A DNA stretch of 41,988 bases. Source: an uncultured Gammaproteobacteria bacterium (GTDB taxonomy: Bacteria; Pseudomonadota; Gammaproteobacteria; DRLM01). A program made the position numbers and the translations under genes. Numbering within the stretch: position 1 is the first letter of the stretch; each line of letters starts with the position of its first letter. The notes beneath the pieces were generated by a model. It worked only from the letters and a program-made list of their open reading frames with translations. It searched no databases and was not told the origin of the DNA. Positions 17,975 through 34,598 of this stretch are shown piece by piece. Location of the stretch: assembly GCA_947259075.1 (NCBI GenBank), contig CAMYKQ010000036.1, positions 1 through 41,988 of the forward strand, given 5' to 3'.

Positions 17975-18391
17975 TTATTTATTCCAGCATTTCTTTTTGG
18001 CGGTGGTGGAGATGTCGGGGCCATTGCTGGTGATGGTGAAGGTGCCGCAACTGTCGCCGGACTGCGGTCCGCCCGACTTTGGCGTGGCGGTGGCGGTGAA
18101 GGTGATGGCGCTCGACGCCGAAATGGCGACGGTGTAATAGCCTTCCAAGGAGTCGGTTCCGCTCCAGCCCAGGCCGCTGAGGGCGCTGTTGTATGTTGGA
18201 TTGTTGGCGCGCCATTTTTCCTGCTGCATCTGGATTTGCAGCAGACTGGTCATGGCGTCGGCGCGGCGGCCCTTCCTCAATGAGTCCTGATATGCGGGGA
18301 GGGCGATGGAGCCAAGGATGGCGACGATCGCCACCACGATCATCAATTCCAATAGGGTGAATCCTTTTGCTCTGCTTATCATTTCACTCAT
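17975..18391 (-). CDS. pilE: Type IV pilin PilE-like minor pilin
   Basis: This is a 138-residue prepilin. The leader MSEMISRAKG is followed by the class III cleavage and helix motif FTLLELMIVVAIVAILGSIALP, with Glu at position 5 of the mature protein. The globular part has two Cys (SGDSCGTF and KKCWNK), which would form the C-terminal disulfide loop. Cleavage and N-methylation would be by PilD. The form matches PilE-type minor pilins that usually close the fimT-pilVWXY1E cluster; here it stands alone on the opposite strand, 230 bases from fimT. An ATG three codons downstream is an alternative start. Confidence 0.9.
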   Translation of the reverse strand: MSEMISRAKGFTLLELMIVVAIVAILGSIALPAYQDSLRKGRRADAMTSLLQIQMQQEKWRANNPTYNSALSGLGWSGTDSLEGYYTVAISASSAITFTATATPKSGGPQSGDSCGTFTITSNGPDISTTAKKKCWNK

Positions 18392-18621: not shown

Positions 18622-19206
18622 ATGAACACGACTTTATTACATAAATTGTCGCGTAAGAGCGCCGCGCCCAATATATCGACAGGGTTTACTCTGGTTGAAT
18701 TGATGGTGGCGCTGGCGGTGACCGCCATCGTTCTGACCATGGCGGTACCTTCTTTTACTTCCTTGTTGGAGCGCAGCCGGCTGAAGGCCGCCGCCAATGC
18801 GATGTACGACGATATTCGTTTCGCCCGCACCGTGGCGATTAAAAACAATAAAGATATCTATATCTCATTCACCACCGGCGACAACTGGTGTTATGGCTTG
18901 AGTGATAATGGCGTATGTAATTGCGGCACAGCGAGTTCATGCCAGGTTGAAGGCGTGGACCGCGTGCTGAGTGGAAGTGATTTTTCCGGAATTACCTTGC
19001 CGACCTCATCAGTAGCAATTGCAGGCGGCACCTCCTTCGTCTTTGAGCCGCGCCGCGGCATCGCGCAGGATAGCGCGGGTGTGTGGCGCAATGGCGCTTT
19101 GTCCCTTGCTTCCGCCAGCGGCGAGTCCATACAAACCGCCGTGAGTATCGTGGGCAGGGTGAGTCAGTGTTCCAGCAGTGTAGGCGGGTACCCAGCATCA
19201 TGTTGA
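18622..19206 (+). CDS. fimT: Minor pseudopilin of the FimT/GspH family
   Basis: This 194-residue prepilin has a long leader ending in STG, then FTLVELMVALAVTAIVLTMAVPSF with the conserved Glu5, cut by the prepilin peptidase. The first helix is followed by SLLERSRLKAAANAMYDDIRFARTVAI, characteristic of the GspH/FimT group, and then a beta-rich domain. Cys residues cluster in two regions (CNCGTASSCQ and SQCSSS...SC). Some FimT proteins bind DNA during natural transformation; whether this one does cannot be seen. The gene overlaps pilW by 7 bases and opens a four-gene minor-pilin operon behind a sigma-54 promoter. Confidence 0.88.
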   Translation: MNTTLLHKLSRKSAAPNISTGFTLVELMVALAVTAIVLTMAVPSFTSLLERSRLKAAANAMYDDIRFARTVAIKNNKDIYISFTTGDNWCYGLSDNGVCNCGTASSCQVEGVDRVLSGSDFSGITLPTSSVAIAGGTSFVFEPRRGIAQDSAGVWRNGALSLASASGESIQTAVSIVGRVSQCSSSVGGYPASC

Positions 19207-20129
19207 AACGTTCCATTTCATTAAATAGTGGCGGATTCAGTCTGGTCGAACTGATGATCGGCATCACGCTGGGCTTGATTATTATTTCCGGTGTATTGGG
19301 CGTTTTTAGCAGCACCGTAAAAAATCAAAGTGATAATTTGAAGATGAGCCGTCTCAATCAAGAGTTGCGTGCCGTGATGGATGTCATGGCGCGGGATATA
19401 CGCCGGGCGGGTTACTGGGGTCTTGCCGCCGATGCCACGCGTCCCGTGGGAACGCTGACGCCCAGCGCGACCAGCGGGGCGATAAGTTTGACTAGTTCGC
19501 AGCCCGTCGCAAGCGGGCCGTTTGTTATCTTTAATACCGCGCCGCGGACCATCACGGGTCTGAAAATTATCAGTGGCGCGGGTTCGGCCACGATTACCGG
19601 TTATACCAATGGATCAACCGTGACGGGTTCGGTCGCCAGCACCTTTACCAGTACCGCCGCGATTCCGCAGGGAGGCTGGATGATCGCCAATCCCTTTACG
19701 GACGCGGCCGCTCTTAATGACATCATTATTTCCGGCAGCTGTATTCAATATACCTATGATATGAACGGCGATACCGTGGTCGATAATAATGAGCGTTTCG
19801 GTTTTCGCTATAACGCTTCATTGTCGCGAGTTGAAATGCATAAAGGCGGGGCAATTACCTGCCCGGGAACCGGTGATTGGGAGCCGCTGAGTTCGGACGG
19901 CGTGGTCGAGGTTACCTCGTTGACGCTGTCGTCGGCCGATACCCAGTGCATCAATGCGAATACCTTCGGCAATTGCGCGACGGGAACGCCCGCCAAGGGT
20001 GATGTGCTGGTGAGCGTCAGGGAAATCGATGTCACGCTGACCGGCCGTTTGCAGGGCGACGCCGCGGTGACGCGGACATTGACCGAGACGGTGAGAGTGC
20101 GCAATGACCGCATCGCGGTCGCGCCATAA
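19200..20129 (+). CDS. pilW: Minor pilin PilW family protein
   Basis: This is a 309-residue prepilin. The leader MLKRSISLNSGG is followed by FSLVELMIGITLGLIIISGVLGVF, and then the segment KNQSDNLKMSRLNQELRAVMDVMARDIRRAGYWG, which is the mark of PilW. The large C-terminal domain is Thr/Ser/Gly-rich and beta-type with three Cys. PilW helps prime pilus assembly as part of the tip complex with PilV, PilX and PilY1. The ATG at 19200 overlaps the end of fimT, which indicates coupling; the frame extends further upstream but only inside fimT. Confidence 0.9.
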   Translation: MLKRSISLNSGGFSLVELMIGITLGLIIISGVLGVFSSTVKNQSDNLKMSRLNQELRAVMDVMARDIRRAGYWGLAADATRPVGTLTPSATSGAISLTSSQPVASGPFVIFNTAPRTITGLKIISGAGSATITGYTNGSTVTGSVASTFTSTAAIPQGGWMIANPFTDAAALNDIIISGSCIQYTYDMNGDTVVDNNERFGFRYNASLSRVEMHKGGAITCPGTGDWEPLSSDGVVEVTSLTLSSADTQCINANTFGNCATGTPAKGDVLVSVREIDVTLTGRLQGDAAVTRTLTETVRVRNDRIAVAP

Positions 20130-20142
20130 CTGAGGTGAGCTT

Positions 20143-21210
20143 ATGAGTATCCGTCCTAATCAGCCGCGTTATATCCCAGCCCGTTTCAAGCAAAGGGGTT
20201 CGGCCAGCTTGGTCGTGGCGCTGGTGCTCTTGGTCGTCACCTCGATAATTACCCTCTACGCCGGGCGCAATGTGGTGATGGAGCAGCGTATCTCCGCCAA
20301 TGATTACCGTGCCAAGCAACTGGCCCAGGCCGCCGATGCCGGCGTGGAATACGGCATCGGCTGGCTGATCAGCAATCCAAACGGCGTGACTTGGAATGGG
20401 GTGGCCGATGCCCAGGGCATGGAGAGTTCGACTAATAACATCACCACCACGCTGAGCTCGGGTTACACGATACAGGTGACCATGAAGCGGCCCTTGAATA
20501 ATGCCGATCGCCTGCAGGTGTATGCCAAGGCTACCGAGACTGGCGGCACCGTGTTCTCCGAAGGCCACACCGATGTGCTGATGAGCAAGCTGCTGGCGGG
20601 TTATCCCAACGCCGCCCTGGTCTTGAGCGGTTGTTTGAGTAATGTCAACGGCAATCCTTCCGCCAATAATGCTGATGGGGTGGGTGTGCCGGTGGTGATT
20701 TCATCCCAGGACGCCTCTTGCATCGATACCGGTCATCTCAATCTCAACGGCGATACCGTGGTGGGTAATGCCTTCACGGGCACGGCTTGGGACCGCACCT
20801 TCTCCATCAGTCAAGCGGAGGCGCAGGCCATGGCCGCTGCCCAGGTGGCGGCGGGGGTTGCCTTCGCCGACCGCACCGTGCATTGGATCACCGATACCAG
20901 TCCCTGGCATACGGACATCGGCAGCCCCACCGCCAGTCCGCCGGTGTCGCGCATCATCGTCTTTACCGGTTGCCCCAAGGTGAATGGCGGCACGGTCTTG
21001 GTGGGCATCGTCTTCTTCCAGGGTCCCTGCGATAGCAACGGCTGGGGCGGTGGCAAGGTGTATGGTTCCGTGGTGATGGAGGGCGATATGAGTAAGCTGA
21101 ACGCCAATACGGAGTTCACCTACAGCAAAGCCTATATAGATTCGCTCTATAACTCCAACGCCGGGGTGCAATCCAAGGTGCCGGGTTCATGGATCGACAA
21201 GGCAAGCTAA
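20143..21210 (+). CDS. pilX: Minor pilin PilX family protein with long C-terminal domain
   Basis: This is a 355-residue protein. Residues 17-70 (RGSASLVVALVLLVVTSIITLYAGRN, then EQRISANDYRAKQLAQAADAGVEYGI) match the PilX N-terminal region, which lacks the usual Glu5 pattern. Typical PilX proteins are about 170-200 residues; here the C-terminal part is much longer, rich in Gly, Asn and Val, with four Cys (LSGC, DASC, TGCP, GPCD). This longer form resembles PilX-like proteins with a beta-helix or beta-sandwich extension. It lies 13 bases after pilW, with GAGGTGAGC as ribosome site. Confidence 0.85.
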   Translation: MSIRPNQPRYIPARFKQRGSASLVVALVLLVVTSIITLYAGRNVVMEQRISANDYRAKQLAQAADAGVEYGIGWLISNPNGVTWNGVADAQGMESSTNNITTTLSSGYTIQVTMKRPLNNADRLQVYAKATETGGTVFSEGHTDVLMSKLLAGYPNAALVLSGCLSNVNGNPSANNADGVGVPVVISSQDASCIDTGHLNLNGDTVVGNAFTGTAWDRTFSISQAEAQAMAAAQVAAGVAFADRTVHWITDTSPWHTDIGSPTASPPVSRIIVFTGCPKVNGGTVLVGIVFFQGPCDSNGWGGGKVYGSVVMEGDMSKLNANTEFTYSKAYIDSLYNSNAGVQSKVPGSWIDKAS

Positions 21211-21303: not shown

Positions 21304-22146
21304 ATGAAGACGAGTCGCATCTTAGGTTTTTCCATCGTCGAGGCCCTGATTACCCTGCTCGTCCTCTCTATCGGCCTTATCGCCTTGGCCAAGTTCTCCG
21401 GCTCGCTCACCAGTGAAGGGGCCCACGCCAAGTCGCGTACCGAGGCCAGCAATATAGGGGAGCGCAAGCTGGAGGAATTCCGCAATTATAAAGATGTCGC
21501 TAGCTATGATGCGTATGTTTCTGGCGTCGACACCGTGGGGCCGACGGGTTCGGGTGCAATGATAGAGATGAGCAACCTCAACCAAAGCTACCAGCGTCAA
21601 TGGACCGTGACGGACAATGGCAGCTACAAGAGCATCAATATTCAAGTGAGCTGGCCAGACAAGAACGGTGTCTATTTCATGCCGGATAATGTCGCCACGC
21701 TGCAGACCATCATCGCGCGGGTTAATCCGGTGACACCGGCGCTGACACCCATGGCCACCAGCGCCACGACGACGACCACGGCGGCAACGACCACGACCAC
21801 GATTGGCGCAGTCACGACCACGGCGGCGACCACGACGACCACGGCGGCAACGACCACGACCACGGCGGCGACCACGACGACCACGGCGGCAACGACCACG
21901 ACCACGGCGGCGACCACGACGACAACGGCGGCAACGACCACGACCACGGCCGTCCCCGTGACGACCACGACCACAACGTATCCGCCGACGCCAGTGACGT
22001 GTAACTGTAAAAAAGGTGTACCCACCGGTTCGAGCGTGGGCCAGTTCGGCTGCACCAGTTGCTGTAGCGTGTCGCCTTATAGTAATGGTAATTCCACGCA
22101 TAATTGCACCATCATCAATGGCAGTGGAACTTGCACTAACCCTTAA
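21304..22146 (+). CDS. pilV: Minor pilin PilV-like with Thr-rich stalk and Cys-rich tip
   Basis: This is a 280-residue prepilin. From the ATG at 21304 the leader is only 8 residues (MKTSRILG), then FSIVEALITLLVLSIGLIALAKFS. AGGAG (21289-21293) lies 10 bases upstream. The in-frame ATG at 21262 would give an unusual 22-residue leader and has no good ribosome site. The body to about residue 150 is PilV-like (EASNIGERKLEEFRNY, then VSWPDKNG). After it comes a Thr/Ala stretch of about 65 residues made of seven-residue AATTTTT units, then a Pro-rich hinge and a terminal domain of about 45 residues with seven Cys (CNC, CTSCC, C, C). The usual PilV has no such stalk or tip. A dense Thr stalk is a natural target for O-glycans. 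Confidence 0.85.
   Translation: MKTSRILGFSIVEALITLLVLSIGLIALAKFSGSLTSEGAHAKSRTEASNIGERKLEEFRNYKDVASYDAYVSGVDTVGPTGSGAMIEMSNLNQSYQRQWTVTDNGSYKSINIQVSWPDKNGVYFMPDNVATLQTIIARVNPVTPALTPMATSATTTTTAATTTTTIGAVTTTAATTTTTAATTTTTAATTTTTAATTTTTAATTTTTAATTTTTAVPVTTTTTTYPPTPVTCNCKKGVPTGSSVGQFGCTSCCSVSPYSNGNSTHNCTIINGSGTCTNP
21781..21948 (+). repeat. Eight 21-bp tandem units encoding the PilV Thr stalk
   Basis: Eight in-frame units of seven codons. Unit 2 (21802-21822) has diverged to IGAVTTT; all others encode AATTTTT. Units 3-8 (21823-21948) alternate between two near-identical DNA versions, one with GCGGCGACC and one with GCGGCAACG, so a 42-bp doublet is also repeated three times. Unit loss or gain would change stalk length without a frameshift. 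Confidence 0.93.
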
Positions 22147-22209
22147 GGTTTGTGTCTGGTCGATGATGAACGAGGCGGGAGGCCTGGCCGAGATGATGGG
22201 TAGATAGTC

Positions 22210-23217
22210 ATGATGCTTCGCAAGGAGGCGTTGATCAGCGTGGTGGTGCCGGTTTTTAACGAAGAACTGGCCTTGCCCGCGTTCACGGCGCGTCTACTGC
22301 CCGTCTTGCGCGACGGCGCTTGCAACTACGAAATTATTTTCGTTGATGACGGCAGCCAGGACGGCACGCCCCGCGTGCTCGATCACCTCGCCAGCGCCCA
22401 CGCTGAAATAAAAATCGTGAGCTTCGCGCGTAATTTCGGGCATCAGGCCGCGCTGCTGGCGGGCTTGTCCGCCGCCCGCGGCCAGTGCGTGATTAGTCTG
22501 GACGGTGATTTGCAACATCCACCGGAGCTGATACCCCAGCTCATCTCACACTGGCGCGCGGGTGCGAAGATCGTGGCGACCCGCCGTATCGATGCTGTGC
22601 AAACCGGTTTCGCTAAACGGGTAACTTCGCGTCTCTATTACCGCCTGTTCAGTTGGCTGTCGGGCCTGCCCATCGAGCAGGGCGTGGCGGATTTCCGTTT
22701 GCTGGACCGGGTGGTGGTCGATACCTTGTTGCAGTTGAAGGAGCGGACCCTGTTCCTGCGAGGGCTCTTGACGTGGCTGGGCTATCCGCAAGCGGTCGTG
22801 GAATATCAGGCCGAGCCGCGAGTGGCGGGGCGCTCGAAATATTCCCCGCGCAAAATGCTTTCCCTCGCCATCAATGGCATCACCGCGTTTTCCATAACGC
22901 CTTTGCGCATCGCCATGGTCATGGGTTTTATCTTTTCATTGGTGAGCTTCATCTATTTGAGTTATGCGATAGCCGTCTATTTTTTCACGGACGGAGCCGT
23001 CGCCGGCTGGACCTCCATCGTGGGATCGGTGTTGTTTCTCGGCGGCATCCAGCTTCTGTGTCTGGGCATCATCGGTGAATACGTGGGCAAGGTTTATCAA
23101 GAGGTGAAGCGCCGGCCGTTTTATGTGTTGAAGGACAGCAAGGGGTTGGAAAATGAAGCATGGAATGCTGCTGATGCTGGGCGTGCTGCTGTCGGCCGCC
23201 GCGCAGCTGCTGATTAA
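22210..23217 (+). CDS. GT2 family polyprenyl-phosphate glycosyltransferase (GtrB/ArnC/DPM1-like)
   Basis: This 335-residue enzyme would move a sugar from a nucleotide donor to undecaprenyl phosphate at the cytoplasmic face. The GT-A domain shows VVVPVFNEE near the N-terminus, VDDGSQDGT at about 46-54, FARNFGHQAALLAGL, and the metal-binding DGDLQHPPE near 98-106. GRSKYSPRKML near 216-226 is the amphipathic segment seen in GtrB-type enzymes. Two C-terminal transmembrane helices follow (about 237-262 and 272-294). The last 22 codons overlap the next gene by 65 bases, so the two are tightly coupled. It starts 63 bases after pilV. The sugar cannot be predicted. Confidence 0.93.
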   Translation: MMLRKEALISVVVPVFNEELALPAFTARLLPVLRDGACNYEIIFVDDGSQDGTPRVLDHLASAHAEIKIVSFARNFGHQAALLAGLSAARGQCVISLDGDLQHPPELIPQLISHWRAGAKIVATRRIDAVQTGFAKRVTSRLYYRLFSWLSGLPIEQGVADFRLLDRVVVDTLLQLKERTLFLRGLLTWLGYPQAVVEYQAEPRVAGRSKYSPRKMLSLAINGITAFSITPLRIAMVMGFIFSLVSFIYLSYAIAVYFFTDGAVAGWTSIVGSVLFLGGIQLLCLGIIGEYVGKVYQEVKRRPFYVLKDSKGLENEAWNAADAGRAAVGRRAAAD

Positions 23218-23503
23218 ATACGGCGTCACCGGCGTAGAGGGACAGACCGGCCCCTTGCTGCGCGCCGCGCTGCGCTGGCCGCTGCTCGCCGGGGCCGGCT
23301 GTTACCTCGTGGCCTTCGCCCTCTATATTTATATTTTGTCGGTCCTCGATGTCAGCTTCGCCTCCCCGGTGATGGTTGGCGGGGTCACGCTGCTGATTCT
23401 ACTGGGCGGTTATTTTTTCGGCGAACCCGTAGGTCTGATCCGGGTCGCGGGCGCCGCCTTGATCGTGGCGGGGATTGTGTTGATCTCGTTCAGCGTCGAA
23501 TAA
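23153..23503 (+). CDS. Small EmrE/EamA-like membrane protein, probable lipid-linked sugar flippase
   Basis: This 116-residue protein has four transmembrane helices (about 3-20, 36-57, 63-86 and 93-112), the size and layout of small multidrug resistance or ArnE/ArnF-type proteins. SAAAQLLIKYGV in helix 1 lacks the membrane-embedded Glu14 that drives drug export in EmrE, which fits a flippase-like role rather than drug efflux. In the arn and gtr systems a small protein of this kind moves the polyprenyl-linked sugar to the periplasm. It is encoded inside the end of the glycosyltransferase gene and is followed by the GT-C-like gene. Confidence 0.82.
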   Translation: MKHGMLLMLGVLLSAAAQLLIKYGVTGVEGQTGPLLRAALRWPLLAGAGCYLVAFALYIYILSVLDVSFASPVMVGGVTLLILLGGYFFGEPVGLIRVAGAALIVAGIVLISFSVE

Positions 23504-23519
23504 TCCGGGGCGCAATCCG

Positions 23520-26177
23520 ATGCAGGCTGGCGCTAAACGACACCGGGGCGCGCTGCTGGATGCGGCGGCTCTGATCTTGCTGATGGTTTTCATCGCCGAC
23601 CGTTTTCCCCTTTCTCTGTTATTGAGCGATAGCATCATGACCGGCGGTGATGCCGCCTCGTGGCATCAAGTGGCGCTGCACTTGAAAAACTCCCTGTTGC
23701 CGCATGGCCGTTTGTTTGGCTGGGATCAGAGTAATTTTTTCGGTTACCCCAATCTTCAATATTATTTCGTGCCGCCCTTTTTGCTGGCGGTGCTGCTGAG
23801 TTACGTCATGCCGCTCACCGTCGCCCTCAAACTGGTGAGCTTCGCCGGCATCCTCGCCCTGCCGCTGGCGCTGTACTGGGCCTTGCGCAAGATGGATTAT
23901 CCCCGCCCTTTTCCCGTGGCCGGGGCTTGGGTCAGTCTGCTGTTTTTGTTTCATGAGCGCTTCGTCATGTTCGGCGGCAATGCGGTCAGCACCTTGGCGG
24001 GGGAGTTCAGTTACAGTCTGGCCTTGGTGCTGATGGTCTTGTTCATGGGGTCGCTGCATCATGGCCTGCCCGCGGGGAAACATCTGCTGCGCAATGCGCT
24101 GCTATTGGGCCTGATCGGACTCACTCACGCCTTCGTGTTTTTAACCGCGGTGTTGATGCCGCTCTATTTTGCGCTGCGTAAGGGTTCACTCAAAGAGCGG
24201 CTGGGCTATCTGGGGCTGATGTATGGGCTGGCCTTTCTGGTGATGGCGTTTTGGGTGCTGCCCATGCTCGCGCTCTTCGACTACACCACGCCCATCAAGA
24301 TGATCTGGCGTTTTTACAGCCTTGAACAATTTTTAACTACCGTGAACTACGAATTGCTCGGTCTGGCCTTGGTCTTGGGTTTATTATTTTTCCTCCCGGC
24401 CTTGCGCCGCCATCATCTGGGTTTTCATCTCTATATGCTCGCCGTCGCGGCGGCGCTCTACTTAGCCGCCACCTTGCTCAAGGTGGCTGACATTCGCTTC
24501 TTTCCCTTTCTGGTTTTGTTCAGCTTATTGCTCGTGCTCGATGCGGCGGCGAGTCTAGTCGTGCTGGCCCCGCGCCGCCGGGGTCTGCTGAGTGGCGTGG
24601 TGTTTGTCATCGCCATCCTGCTGGGTGGCGCTTGGCTCTATAAGCCGGACCTGCAAGCACCGGCGTGGTTCGTCTGGAATTACACCGGTTACGAGGCCAA
24701 GCCCGCCTTCAAGGACGGCACGATGCAGCAACTGGCGGCCGCCCTTGCCGCGCCCGCGGGCGCGCCGCGAGTGGCTTGGGAGAAATTCGCCTATGACGGC
24801 GAGTTTGGCAGTGACCGCGTTTTTGAAAGCATGAATTTATTCACCGGGCGCTGGTCGACGGAGGGCATCCATTACGCCTCGGCCTTGCTGAGCAAGCCCA
24901 TCAGCTATATGCATGGCGAATACTCGTTGCATTCCGCCGCGCCGGAGGATCTCATCTTCTCCCATTACAATATGGAGATCGTGCCGCGGCGTTTCCGCAT
25001 GTTCAATATCCGCGACTTCATTGCCGCGAGTCCCGAGATCACCCGTTTGTTTGCCGCATCGCCGGATTTTTCAAAGACCGCCGCGGCGGGGCGCTACACG
25101 ATTTTTTCTTTGCGCGAGGGCGCGGAACGTTATGTGGAGTCGACGCCTTATACGCCGCAATTGCTACGGCTTGACGGTGCTGATTGGCGGCAGCGTTTCT
25201 ATGCCTGGTTCCGCCGTGGCGCGGATCTGGATTTGGCCCTGGTCAGCGGGCATCGCGCCACGGCGGATGAGCGCGCGCGCTATTTCCGTGTGGCGCCCGC
25301 GGAGATCGACGTCCATGGCTTCGTTACTGGCGCGCGGCGTATTCCTCAAGCGCGGGCCACTGTCAGTGATGAGGCTTTGGATGATTTCACCATACGTTTT
25401 CGCACCGACCGGCCTGGCATCGCGCACCTCATCAAGGTGGCCTATTCCCCCAATTGGGAGGCGGAGGGCGGTGAGTCTTTATTTCCGGTGAGCCCGGGTT
25501 TCATGTTGATCTTTCCTCAGGGCGAACAGGTTGTGCTGCGCTACCGGCGGCATGGGAGCGAAATCCTTGGCTTGGTGCTCACTACGCTGGGCGGATTCTT
25601 GCTCGTGATTTTGGCGTGGCGGCCGCGGGCCGCCGCGTCTTGTTTGCGCGCGCAGTGGATCGCGCGGCTTGCCACGGGGATAGAGCGGATTCGCTGGCCG
25701 GTCTACGGCGTGGTGTTGCTCGTCCTCATTGCCGGCGGCGTGCATGGCTGGCGGGAAAAGCAGGCGGTGTTCGACGATTATCACCACGGGACGCGTTTAG
25801 CGGCGCAAGGAAAAATGGAAGATGCCTTGGTCTATTTTCATCGCGCCGGCAGTGATGAGCACATCGCTCACGACGACAATGCCGATGTGCCCGCGGCGCT
25901 TTATGCGGCGGTGCGCGCCTTGCGTGAACTGGGCCGTGACGCGGAGGCCATCGCCGCGGCGGAGCGCCTGCTGCATTACTATCCCATGTGGATCTATGCG
26001 CATGAGCTGCATTTTCATTTGGGCGAATTGTATGCCCGGCGCGGTGAGCGCGACCGTGCGGTGCGGCATTTTCAGCGCTGTGAGGAGATGGATCTTTTTT
26101 CCTCCTATCATGCCGATTGTCAGACGCGCTTGGCATCATTGACGCGGCAACAGGATGTGAGCGATGCGCCGCGTTAA
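23520..26177 (+). CDS. Large GT-C-like membrane protein (PTPS-related type) with C-terminal TPR-like region
   Basis: This is an 885-residue protein. Residues 13-345 hold about nine or ten transmembrane segments. The first periplasmic loop carries GGDAASWHQ (41-49), an Asp-containing loop like the one used by GT-C enzymes that take polyprenyl-phosphate sugars. FFGYPNLQYYFVPPF downstream is typical of the 6-pyruvoyl-tetrahydropterin-synthase-related membrane family. A soluble periplasmic domain follows (about 380-680), then two more membrane segments (about 690-710 and 735-752). The end is a helical region with repeated A-x-x-Y/L patterns (DALVYFHRAG, AAERLLHYYP, AVRHFQRCEE) like TPR units. The next gene overlaps its end by 14 bases. 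Likely role: transfer of the lipid-linked sugar to a protein or glycan (inference). Confidence 0.75.
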   Translation: MQAGAKRHRGALLDAAALILLMVFIADRFPLSLLLSDSIMTGGDAASWHQVALHLKNSLLPHGRLFGWDQSNFFGYPNLQYYFVPPFLLAVLLSYVMPLTVALKLVSFAGILALPLALYWALRKMDYPRPFPVAGAWVSLLFLFHERFVMFGGNAVSTLAGEFSYSLALVLMVLFMGSLHHGLPAGKHLLRNALLLGLIGLTHAFVFLTAVLMPLYFALRKGSLKERLGYLGLMYGLAFLVMAFWVLPMLALFDYTTPIKMIWRFYSLEQFLTTVNYELLGLALVLGLLFFLPALRRHHLGFHLYMLAVAAALYLAATLLKVADIRFFPFLVLFSLLLVLDAAASLVVLAPRRRGLLSGVVFVIAILLGGAWLYKPDLQAPAWFVWNYTGYEAKPAFKDGTMQQLAAALAAPAGAPRVAWEKFAYDGEFGSDRVFESMNLFTGRWSTEGIHYASALLSKPISYMHGEYSLHSAAPEDLIFSHYNMEIVPRRFRMFNIRDFIAASPEITRLFAASPDFSKTAAAGRYTIFSLREGAERYVESTPYTPQLLRLDGADWRQRFYAWFRRGADLDLALVSGHRATADERARYFRVAPAEIDVHGFVTGARRIPQARATVSDEALDDFTIRFRTDRPGIAHLIKVAYSPNWEAEGGESLFPVSPGFMLIFPQGEQVVLRYRRHGSEILGLVLTTLGGFLLVILAWRPRAAASCLRAQWIARLATGIERIRWPVYGVVLLVLIAGGVHGWREKQAVFDDYHHGTRLAAQGKMEDALVYFHRAGSDEHIAHDDNADVPAALYAAVRALRELGRDAEAIAAAERLLHYYPMWIYAHELHFHLGELYARRGERDRAVRHFQRCEEMDLFSSYHADCQTRLASLTRQQDVSDAPR

Positions 26178-26982
26178 GCTGGGTGTTTATGCGCTGATGT
26201 TATGCGGTCTCTGTGCCGCCGCCGCGTTCGCGGGCGTGGTGCAAGTGCAGCTCAGCAGCGAGACGACGGTAACGGGGCCGCAAGCCCTTGTGCGTTTAGA
26301 TGTGCGCAATGAGGGGAGCGAGCCGTTGCTGGATATCGCCGCCCGCTTGCATCTGGAGGGGAATGAATTCGTTTCGGAACGGATTGCGCGGTTGCTGCCC
26401 GGTGACACGCTTTCCCAGCGCCTGCTCGTCCCCTTGCCGCCGCATGCGCGAGGACGTTATCTCCTGCCGCTGTGGTTGCTGTATCACACCGCGGCGGGTC
26501 AGTCCCTTGCGGCGGTTCATGTCGCCGAATTGAATACGGCCGAGGCGCGGCCGGCGAATCTGCGGCTGGAGCTTGCCGCGTTACACCTTGAAGGCCGTGA
26601 CGGCGGCGGGCGTTTATCTATTCATAATGCCGCGGCCTCGTCACGGGTATTCAACTTGCGAGCCGTGACGCCGCCCTCGCTGCATCTCGGTGGTCTGCCC
26701 GATAGCCTGAGGCTGGCGGCCGGCGCGGAGATGACGCTGCCCTTCAAATTGGAGGTTGAAGAATCGCTAATTAGCGGCGCGTATCCCGTGTTCGTGTTGG
26801 CATCGTTTACTGAGGAAGATTTGCATTACGCGCAATCCGTCGCGGCGACGGTGCGAGTGGGCGATAGCCGCAGCCTGCCCGCCCGGTTTTTCGCGTATAC
26901 GCAGTGGATCTACACCTTGGCGGCCTTGCTGGCGGCCTGGGTGGTGATGATGGCGTTCTATGATATCCGGCGGCGGCCTTGA
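26164..26982 (+). CDS. Exported beta-rich protein with C-terminal membrane anchor
   Basis: This is a 272-residue protein. A signal peptide (MRRVKLGVYALMLCGLCAAAAFA) leads into two beta-rich halves of the Ig-like/NPCBM-associated sort (VRLDVRNEGSEPLLDIAARL and GRLSIHNAAASSRVFNL). One transmembrane helix lies near residues 243-265, then the cytoplasmic tail YDIRRRP. This layout, a periplasmic beta-sandwich tethered to the inner membrane, occurs in accessory subunits near membrane glycosyltransferases. It overlaps the GT-C-like gene by 14 bases and ends the operon. I do not recognise a specific family. Confidence 0.72.
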   Translation: MRRVKLGVYALMLCGLCAAAAFAGVVQVQLSSETTVTGPQALVRLDVRNEGSEPLLDIAARLHLEGNEFVSERIARLLPGDTLSQRLLVPLPPHARGRYLLPLWLLYHTAAGQSLAAVHVAELNTAEARPANLRLELAALHLEGRDGGGRLSIHNAAASSRVFNLRAVTPPSLHLGGLPDSLRLAAGAEMTLPFKLEVEESLISGAYPVFVLASFTEEDLHYAQSVAATVRVGDSRSLPARFFAYTQWIYTLAALLAAWVVMMAFYDIRRRP

Positions 26983-33697: not shown

Positions 33698-33743
33698 TGC
33701 TCAGACGGCTTGAATTGTCTTGTGTACTTTAAGGAAGAATAAA

Positions 33744-34598
33744 ATGAACGCATTTGCTAGAACCCTGATCGCCGCCAGTCTGCTCGGCGCCGGCGCGGGC
33801 AGCGCCCAGGCCTTGACGATTACGTATAACGATTTCACCGATGTCTCCGCGTTGACGCTTAACGGCGCCACGTCCGCCATCGGCAACCCGGTCTTCGACG
33901 GCAGCCAGAATGTGCTGCGCTTGACCAATAGCCTGAGCCAAGGCGGCAGCGCTTTCTCAACCAGCGCGATTTCCCTGGCCTCCAACGCCTCCTTCAGCAC
34001 CGCCTTCAGCTTCCGCATCAGCAACCCCATGGGCATTTCCGATTCCGACGGCCAGGGCGCGGACGGCATTGTCTTCACGGTGCAAACCGTCTCCAACAGC
34101 GTGGGCGGCATCGGTGGCGGCATCGGCTATTTAGGTATTTCCAACAGCGTCGGCATCGAATACGACACATGGGACAACGGCGGCATCGATGATTTCGACG
34201 GCAATCATGTCGGCATCGATCTTAACGGCAGCGTCGACGCCGTGCTGCAAACACCCATAGCCACACGCATGAACAACGGCGCTGTCTGGTATTCCTGGGT
34301 CGATTACGACGGCGCCTCCAGTCAGCTGGAAGTGCGTTTGTCGCAAACCAGCGTGCGTCCCACCAGCGCCTTGCTGGCATACACCACCGACCTGTCTAGC
34401 GTCTTGGGTTCCACTGACGCCTTCATCGGCTTCACCTCCGGCACCGGCGCGGCGGGCGGCTATCACGACATCTTGTCTTGGACCTTCATCAACGAGTTTA
34501 AACCCATCGATGGCACGGTACCCGAACCCGCCAGCCTTGCATTATTAGGCATGGGTTTGGCCGGGATGGGTTTGGCGCGCCGCCGCAAGCGCGCTTAA
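33744..34598 (+). CDS. PEP-CTERM sorted protein with legume-lectin-like domain
   Basis: This is a 284-residue secreted protein. A signal peptide (MNAFARTLIAASLLGAGAGSAQA) leads into a beta-sandwich resembling L-type lectins: FSTAFSFRI, then DGQGADGIVFTVQ, VGIEYDTWDNGG, and DGNHVGIDLNGS with metal-binding-type Asp/Asn. The C-terminus is a textbook PEP-CTERM signal: VPEPASLALLGMGLAGMGLA then RRRKR, which exosortase recognises and cuts. AAGGAAG lies 6 bases before the ATG at 33744. The protein probably ends up in the extracellular matrix and may bind sugar. No exosortase gene is in the window. An intrinsic terminator follows. Confidence 0.9.
   Translation: MNAFARTLIAASLLGAGAGSAQALTITYNDFTDVSALTLNGATSAIGNPVFDGSQNVLRLTNSLSQGGSAFSTSAISLASNASFSTAFSFRISNPMGISDSDGQGADGIVFTVQTVSNSVGGIGGGIGYLGISNSVGIEYDTWDNGGIDDFDGNHVGIDLNGSVDAVLQTPIATRMNNGAVWYSWVDYDGASSQLEVRLSQTSVRPTSALLAYTTDLSSVLGSTDAFIGFTSGTGAAGGYHDILSWTFINEFKPIDGTVPEPASLALLGMGLAGMGLARRRKRA

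Follow-up and report, generated by a model that had tools for sequence, protein, structure and literature searches.

Three-component glycosylation systems of the GtrABC type, in which the genes for a GtrB-class undecaprenyl-phosphate (Und-P)-sugar synthase, a small flippase, and a GT-C transferase are clustered, are known mostly for the modification of polymers (PMC8035078, PMC11127046). Among systems directed at proteins, the closest is Pgf of S. mutans (PgfS-M1-E-M2), which acts on Cnm and WapA and provides a model for a mechanical role of the sugars in stiffening and protease protection (PMC5856776). Periplasmic glycosylation of pilins is carried out by TfpO/PglL enzymes, which use Und-PP-oligosaccharides and carry a Wzy_C domain. 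TfpW of P. aeruginosa group IV, as summarized in a later account (PMC11841053, citing Kus 2008), is a GT-C encoded beside the type IV pilin that acts directly on it, modifying the major pilin PilA with D-Araf. The Pfam family PF10131 is counted as a member of the GT-C/PMT clan, and the TMTC O-mannosyltransferases combine a GT-C region with lumenal TPRs (PMC7801869). Our search of the full-text literature, covering papers available without subscription, returned no paper in which a PF10131 enzyme acts on Thr stalks.

Here we describe a locus in a 41,988-nucleotide stretch of DNA from an uncultured gammaproteobacterium (the window), where genes for such a system directly follow a minor pilin gene. 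From gene content, folds, synteny, and co-occurrence, we infer that a three-component system (Und-P-sugar synthesis, flipping, and GT-C transfer) probably O-glycosylates Thr-rich stalks, in this case that of PilV.

Organization of the pilV locus

The + strand carries, in order, fimT, pilW, pilX, pilV, GT2, flippase, GT-C, and Ig-like genes. The pilin genes encode a FimT/GspH-like minor pilin (18622..19206; GspH, 37 bits), a PilW-like minor pilin (19200..20129; N_methyl, 21.8 bits), the minor pilin PilX (20143..21210; PilX_N, 47 bits), and a PilV-type minor prepilin with a GFSIVE class III leader, the proposed acceptor (21304..22146). A ComP-type pilin is encoded on the - strand (17975..18391; ComP_DUS, 86.8 bits). 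The genes after pilV encode a GtrB/DPM-type polyprenyl-phosphate glycosyltransferase (GT2; 22210..23217), a small EamA/SMR-type membrane protein of 116 residues that is the proposed donor flippase (23153..23503), a PF10131 GT-C of 885 residues with a beta domain and C-terminal TPR that is the proposed O-glycosyltransferase (23520..26177), and a signal/TM-anchored tandem Ig-like protein of 272 residues that is its proposed periplasmic partner (26164..26982). The gene coordinates in the initial annotation, all on the + strand, were correct throughout, and the flippase-like gene overlaps the GT2 gene by exactly 65 bp as it had indicated; the GT-C and Ig-like genes overlap by 14 bp. The next genes are on the opposite strand, which places the operon end after the Ig-like gene. 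A promoter/terminator scan found no terminator-like match in the pilV-GT2 interval, and matches outside it occurred near the shuffled level.

PilV matches the TIGR02523 PilV model over its first ~70 residues only (35.5 bits, cut-off 52.2), and its gene adjoins those of PilX, PilW, and FimT, a context conserved in another genus of the same family (genome G003). The Thr stalk spans residues 150-225 (21751..21978, + strand) and is encoded by a degenerate 21-bp tandem repeat; its 76 residues, mainly (TTTTTAA)n, include 50 Thr, where more than 40 had been claimed. It is followed by a Cys-rich C-terminal tip (21979..22143, + strand; 7 Cys in 55 residues), possibly an adhesive knob. A CxC-type Cys-rich end is common to the PilV proteins of G003 and of a genome from the Burkholderiaceae sample (G470), and is lacking from the PilV of a genome from another family (G041). 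When a Thr run is defined as 12 Thr codons (ACNx12) with at most two mismatches, the 3.1-Mb genome of the window (G000) has a single such run, the PilV stalk, and the sole Thr run of G003 is also its PilV. The pattern overlooks interrupted stalks (L094 and most PHB depolymerases) and picks up some microsatellites that are non-coding.

Predicted components of the system

The GT2 carries a Pfam Glycos_transf_2 domain (104 bits) and matches the solved GtrB structure sll0501 over residues 9-314 (E 1.6e-78) as well as ArnC (E 1.7e-42). These full-length matches place the enzyme, first annotated as a polyprenyl-phosphate glycosyltransferase, in the GtrB class: it is a GT-A polyprenyl-phosphate sugar synthase with C-terminal TM helices, as in other three-component systems. 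Its best NCBIfam model is PgfS (NF047588), at 270.3 bits and below the equivalog cut-off of 500. The small membrane protein falls marginally within the GtrA/SMR/EamA-type flippases of three-component systems, exceeding the EamA cut-off by 0.1 bit (28.3 against 28.2) and giving weak NCBIfam matches to ArnE/ArnF. Its position is taken by GtrA in many relatives, especially in beta-proteobacterial loci.

The third protein had been described as GT-C-like with a TPR-like end, and both parts are borne out by domain matches above the gathering cut-offs (PF10131 PTPS_related, 55.0 bits against 26.4; TPR_6 at the C-terminus, 27.5 against 26.3) and by a GT-C fold in its AlphaFold2 model (pLDDT 90.7, pTM 0.91). 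Foldseek matched the model to AftD, STT3, and AglB, and VIA-align gave Z scores of 15-20 across STT3 (19.9; 457 residues, 4.2 A), Pmt4 (18.7; 336 residues, 3.6 A), AftA (17.4), and AglB. Invariant residues among 34 homologues include G42, G43, D44, Y82, F83, K104, G161, and E162, among others. D44 sits in the loop following TM1, where GT-C enzymes have a catalytic, metal-binding, or acceptor-binding Asp (PMC7801869), so that the protein combines a GT-C transferase fold with an acidic residue in the first external loop, as expected of a three-component system. The likeness to PMTs is one of fold only, with no PMT or PMT_2 sequence match at E<=1; Pfam searches likewise returned no Wzy_C or PglL_A domain and no TMTC-specific match, and the order of GT-C followed by TPR was seen. 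An Arg-rich loop before the last TM helix suggests, by the positive-inside rule, that the TPR end is periplasmic.

The last gene was initially taken to encode an anchored beta-rich partner, and the AlphaFold2 model (pLDDT 90) indeed shows two beta sandwiches, preceded by an N-terminal hydrophobic helix and followed by a C-terminal TM helix. All of its Pfam matches (NPCBM_assoc/CARDB) are sub-threshold, and Foldseek and VIA return generic Ig/FnIII folds (RbmA, transglutaminase, and sialidase domains) that point to no function. Its similarity to the protein encoded upstream in beta-proteobacterial loci is significant for the first domain only (hhalign 96.8%). Homologues of this protein adjoin GT-C relatives in many phyla, and in two genomes (G157 and G362) an extra beta region is fused to the GT-C N-terminus, an arrangement that speaks for joint action of the Ig-like partner and the GT-C. 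Just upstream of the Ig-like gene, these same two genomes encode a UPF0104/LPG_synthase_TM-like membrane protein (L016 1-951 and L017 5805-6881), possibly an alternative flippase.

Comparison with described systems

As in the GtrABC-type systems (PMC8035078, PMC11127046), a GtrB-class synthase, a small flippase, and a GT-C are clustered at this locus. Here, however, the linked acceptor genes encode Thr-stalk proteins rather than belonging to polysaccharide synthesis, the GT-C is a PF10131 protein with TPRs, and there is an additional anchored Ig-like partner. The likeness to Pgf (PMC5856776) lies in the position beside the gene of a protein acceptor, in the membrane GT-C-like partner, in PgfS being the nearest model to the GT2, and in the galE of one related locus (G195), which recalls pgfE of S. 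mutans. The two differ in that the GT2 scores below the PgfS cut-off, the GT-C is PF10131 whereas PgfM1 belongs to the PMT_2 family, the host is Gram-negative, a dedicated small flippase and an Ig-like partner are present, and the window operon has no epimerase.

TfpW, compared here by its published description (PMC11841053), is also a GT-C encoded beside a pilin, but its substrate is the major pilin, while our locus pairs the transferase with a Thr-stalk minor pilin and has the genes for donor synthase and flippase in the same operon. The PMT/GT39 and TMTC1-4 enzymes act on Ser/Thr and share the GT-C fold (as seen with Pmt4) and an expected polyprenyl-P-sugar donor. The TMTCs also carry a C-terminal TPR array, in the lumen, comparable to the C-terminal array of about 120 residues in our GT-C, which differs from both groups in lacking PMT, PMT_2, or TMTC domain matches and in having a separate Ig-like partner. 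TfpO/PglL resembles the proposed system in glycosylating pilins in the periplasm, and is set apart from it by its Und-PP-oligosaccharide donors and its Wzy_C domain, for which our GT-C gave no match.

Three proteins with a Wzy_C domain are encoded elsewhere in the window genome; one also has DUF5935, and the genes of the other two adjoin glycosyltransferase genes. We rejected a PglL-type OTase as the modifier, since none of the three has a PglL_A match and none lies near pilins in the stretches examined; an additional PglL-like route is possible.

Conservation beside PilV

The order comP, fimT, pilW, pilX, Thr-stalk pilV, GT2, flippase, GT-C, and Ig-like is identical in G003, where the GT-C and the pilin domain of the PilV ortholog have diverged to 54% and 56% identity, respectively. 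That gene order is kept at this divergence shows that the arrangement is not due to chance. The repeat pattern of the stalk differs between the two genomes, and thus Thr-rich composition has been kept, not sequence. Within the genus of the window, two genomes (G001 and G002) have a short PilV without a stalk, and no GT-C was found in either; in G002, a genome 75% complete, a single weak Thr run occurs in a different protein. This genome also encodes, after the PilW/PilX genes, a PilY1-like protein of 1263 residues that has a Thr-rich segment (L172 2019-5810).

The linkage recurs at greater distance. In G041, a Thr-stalk PilV and a beta protein precede the GT-C, and in G470 the order is PilX, Thr-stalk PilV, and GT-C. 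In G195 one contig carries the GT-C, flippase, Ig-like protein, and galE. A second contig with a Thr-stalk PilV breaks inside the stalk (L166, G195:C90, 3780-4524), and the GT-C and flippase begin the other; this is likely an assembly break at the repeat, which makes adjacency of PilV and GT-C plausible there, though unseen. The galE-like gene, a UDP-glucose 4-epimerase relative directly after the Ig-like gene as pgfE is placed in S. mutans (L030 3814-4932, identical to L014), hints at a galactose- or GalNAc-type sugar. In the gene tree, where changes can be counted but gains and losses not told apart, the PilV-linked GT-Cs occupy three separate places, a result forced by well-supported branches.

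Threonine-stalk neighbours of GT-C relatives

A single-sequence contig scan for relatives of the GT-C yielded 0, and a six-row alignment yielded 215 matches, of which 80 loci were kept. These span Proteobacteria, Desulfobacterota, Omnitrophota, SAR324, WOR-1, and archaea, among others; GT2 recurs beside the GT-C relatives, and the upstream Ig-like protein recurs in both archaea and bacteria. Thr stalks are found next to the GT-C on lipoproteins in Comamonadaceae-type genomes, on pilins in WOR-1/Saganbacteria, and on PHB depolymerases (PF10503) in Paucimonas lemoignei and relatives (L102, L107, G442, G474, G515, and G530). The expectation that a module unrelated to pilin modification would usually lie far from pilins is therefore answered in two parts: the module is usually away from pilins, but there it is often beside other Thr-stalk proteins. 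Similarly, the initial proposal of a system for minor pilins holds insofar as the module is joined to PilV on three branches, and is too narrow for what looks like a Thr-stalk system that is not pilin-specific.

Two other observations concern such proteins. In G362, the GT-C module lies between two CxxCH (cytochrome c7-like) proteins whose stalks are (TTTTTTAPP)n (L017 3672-5351 and 13192-14454); one of these proteins ends in a hydrophobic helix and Arg cluster like a CTERM sorting signal. Away from its GT-C locus, G041 encodes more secreted-looking Thr-run proteins of 261 and 602 residues (L167 and L168; G041:C27 and C99), and several acceptors may therefore be served by the system in this genome.

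Among the 88 GT-C relatives in the tree, 60 have no labelled Thr-stalk neighbour, notably archaeal and Patescibacteria ones, and the family may therefore have wider acceptors. This would also be expected if the system O-glycosylated periplasmic proteins in general, with many acceptors such as the major pilin and lipoproteins, and the PilV stalk were an incidental target or one among many. Relatives that adjoin many unlike proteins, and the many Thr runs of some GT-C genomes, are in keeping with that explanation. We nevertheless consider it unlikely, given that PilV is the sole Thr run in both G000 and G003 and that the order from pilV into the operon is conserved.

The co-occurrence of stalk and transferase that the initial annotation proposed to look for was found in tests that overlap one another and whose counts are uncorrected for kinship. 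In the class sample, all six genomes with the GT-C (6 of 369) are among the 67 with a Thr run (hypergeometric 3e-5); the six represent four families, so that the true weight of this value is less. In the Burkholderiaceae sample, the overlap is nine of nine (GT-C in 9 of 195, Thr run in 88 of 195, a background that includes microsatellites; p 6e-4). Thr runs are carried by 37 of the 42 genomes reached via GT-C loci; they lie in the GT-C locus in 15 of the 42, against 2.1 expected (ten clusters per genome allowed; P about 9e-9), and in eight of the 42 every Thr run is inside that locus. Across 82 loci, the Thr pattern occurs in 19 and a reversed control pattern in two, neither of which has a real Thr run.

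The same loci bear on whether the module might instead decorate LPS, O-antigen, or exopolysaccharide, with pilV nearby by chance or co-regulation. Precedent favours such a role, in that most characterized systems of GtrB, flippase, and GT-C have O-antigen or cell-wall polymers as their targets (PMC11127046, PMC8035078). LPS genes, however, a usual tie to which was to count against the initial reading, are not prominent among 149 neighbours at 27 beta/gamma loci. The leading families there are Glycos_transf_2 (13), GtrA (12), Esterase_PHB (7), and pilin leader (6), and the 21 families with at least two neighbours include no Wzx/Wzy/Waa, O-antigen, or core LPS family. Together with the strong enrichment of Thr runs at GT-C loci, this makes a polysaccharide target quite improbable. 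That the stalk is an unmodified flexible linker, associated with the operon through shared horizontal transfer or composition bias, is very improbable: 61 class genomes do have Thr runs without the GT-C, but linkage of unrelated carriers on different branches and the paired presence or absence of stalk and GT-C within a genus are hard to obtain by drift, and the reversed control pattern is rare where the Thr pattern is not.

Proposed mechanism and implications

The O-glycosylation of Thr stalks thus remains the reading we favour, and the make-flip-transfer chain first suggested for this locus, with the stalk as acceptor, is supported by synteny, presence and absence, recurrent linkage, co-occurrence, and the GT-C fold. 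We infer a mechanism, including its catalysis, acceptor, sugar identity, TPR and partner topology, and mechanical role, in which the GtrB-type GT2 would, in the cytoplasm, load a single sugar onto undecaprenyl phosphate and the EamA/SMR-type protein would flip the Und-P-sugar. On the periplasmic side, the GT-C could then move the sugar onto Thr hydroxyls of the PilV stalk, while the TPR end and the anchored tandem Ig-like partner may hold the acceptor or the pilin. Dense modification would make the stalk stiff and resistant to proteases in a mucin-like manner, and the stalk might keep the Cys-rich tip off the pilus. With GtrA replacing the small flippase, the module may serve other Thr-stalk proteins, for example the linkers of PHB depolymerases.

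These enzymes provide a possible link to earlier biochemistry. As reported in PMC4624153 (citing Nakayama 1985), a PHB depolymerase of P. lemoignei is glycosylated, its sugar composition and function being given as unknown, and the linker is described as Thr-rich in PMC11893044 (citing Briese 1994); the accessible literature names no enzyme for this glycosylation. In P. lemoignei DSM 7445 (L102), two genes for Thr-linker PHB depolymerases lie ~1-5 kb from a set of GtrA, upstream protein, GT-C, and GT2, and these may be the enzymes reported as glycosylated. We hypothesize, with the balance of evidence about even, that the PF10131 GT-C with TPR, its Ig-like partner, GtrB, and a GtrA/SMR flippase form an undescribed O-glycosyltransferase family whose acceptors are set by Thr-rich composition and not by protein family, and which would account both for the glycosylation of P. 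lemoignei PHB depolymerase and for mucin-like stalks at pilin tips in several lineages.

If correct, this would identify the transferase behind a class of Thr-rich (mucin-like) stalks in bacteria, extend three-component glycosylation from polysaccharides to dense protein modification in Gram-negative bacteria, and make a decades-old report of P. lemoignei PHB depolymerase glycosylation testable by single gene deletions. The findings also point to a modular way of placing glycosylated linkers on secreted enzymes and pilus tips. The Thr-stalked neighbours include plastic-degrading enzymes (PHB depolymerases) whose relatives have long been reported as glycosylated.

Two features of the window lie apart from this locus. 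The first 2000 nucleotides (1-2000) have a G+C content of 0.44, compared with 0.54-0.67 over the remaining window, and could be an acquired segment. At 33720-34598, a secreted protein is encoded that carries a C-terminal PEP-CTERM-like signal (VPEPASLALLGMGLAGMGLARRRKRA).
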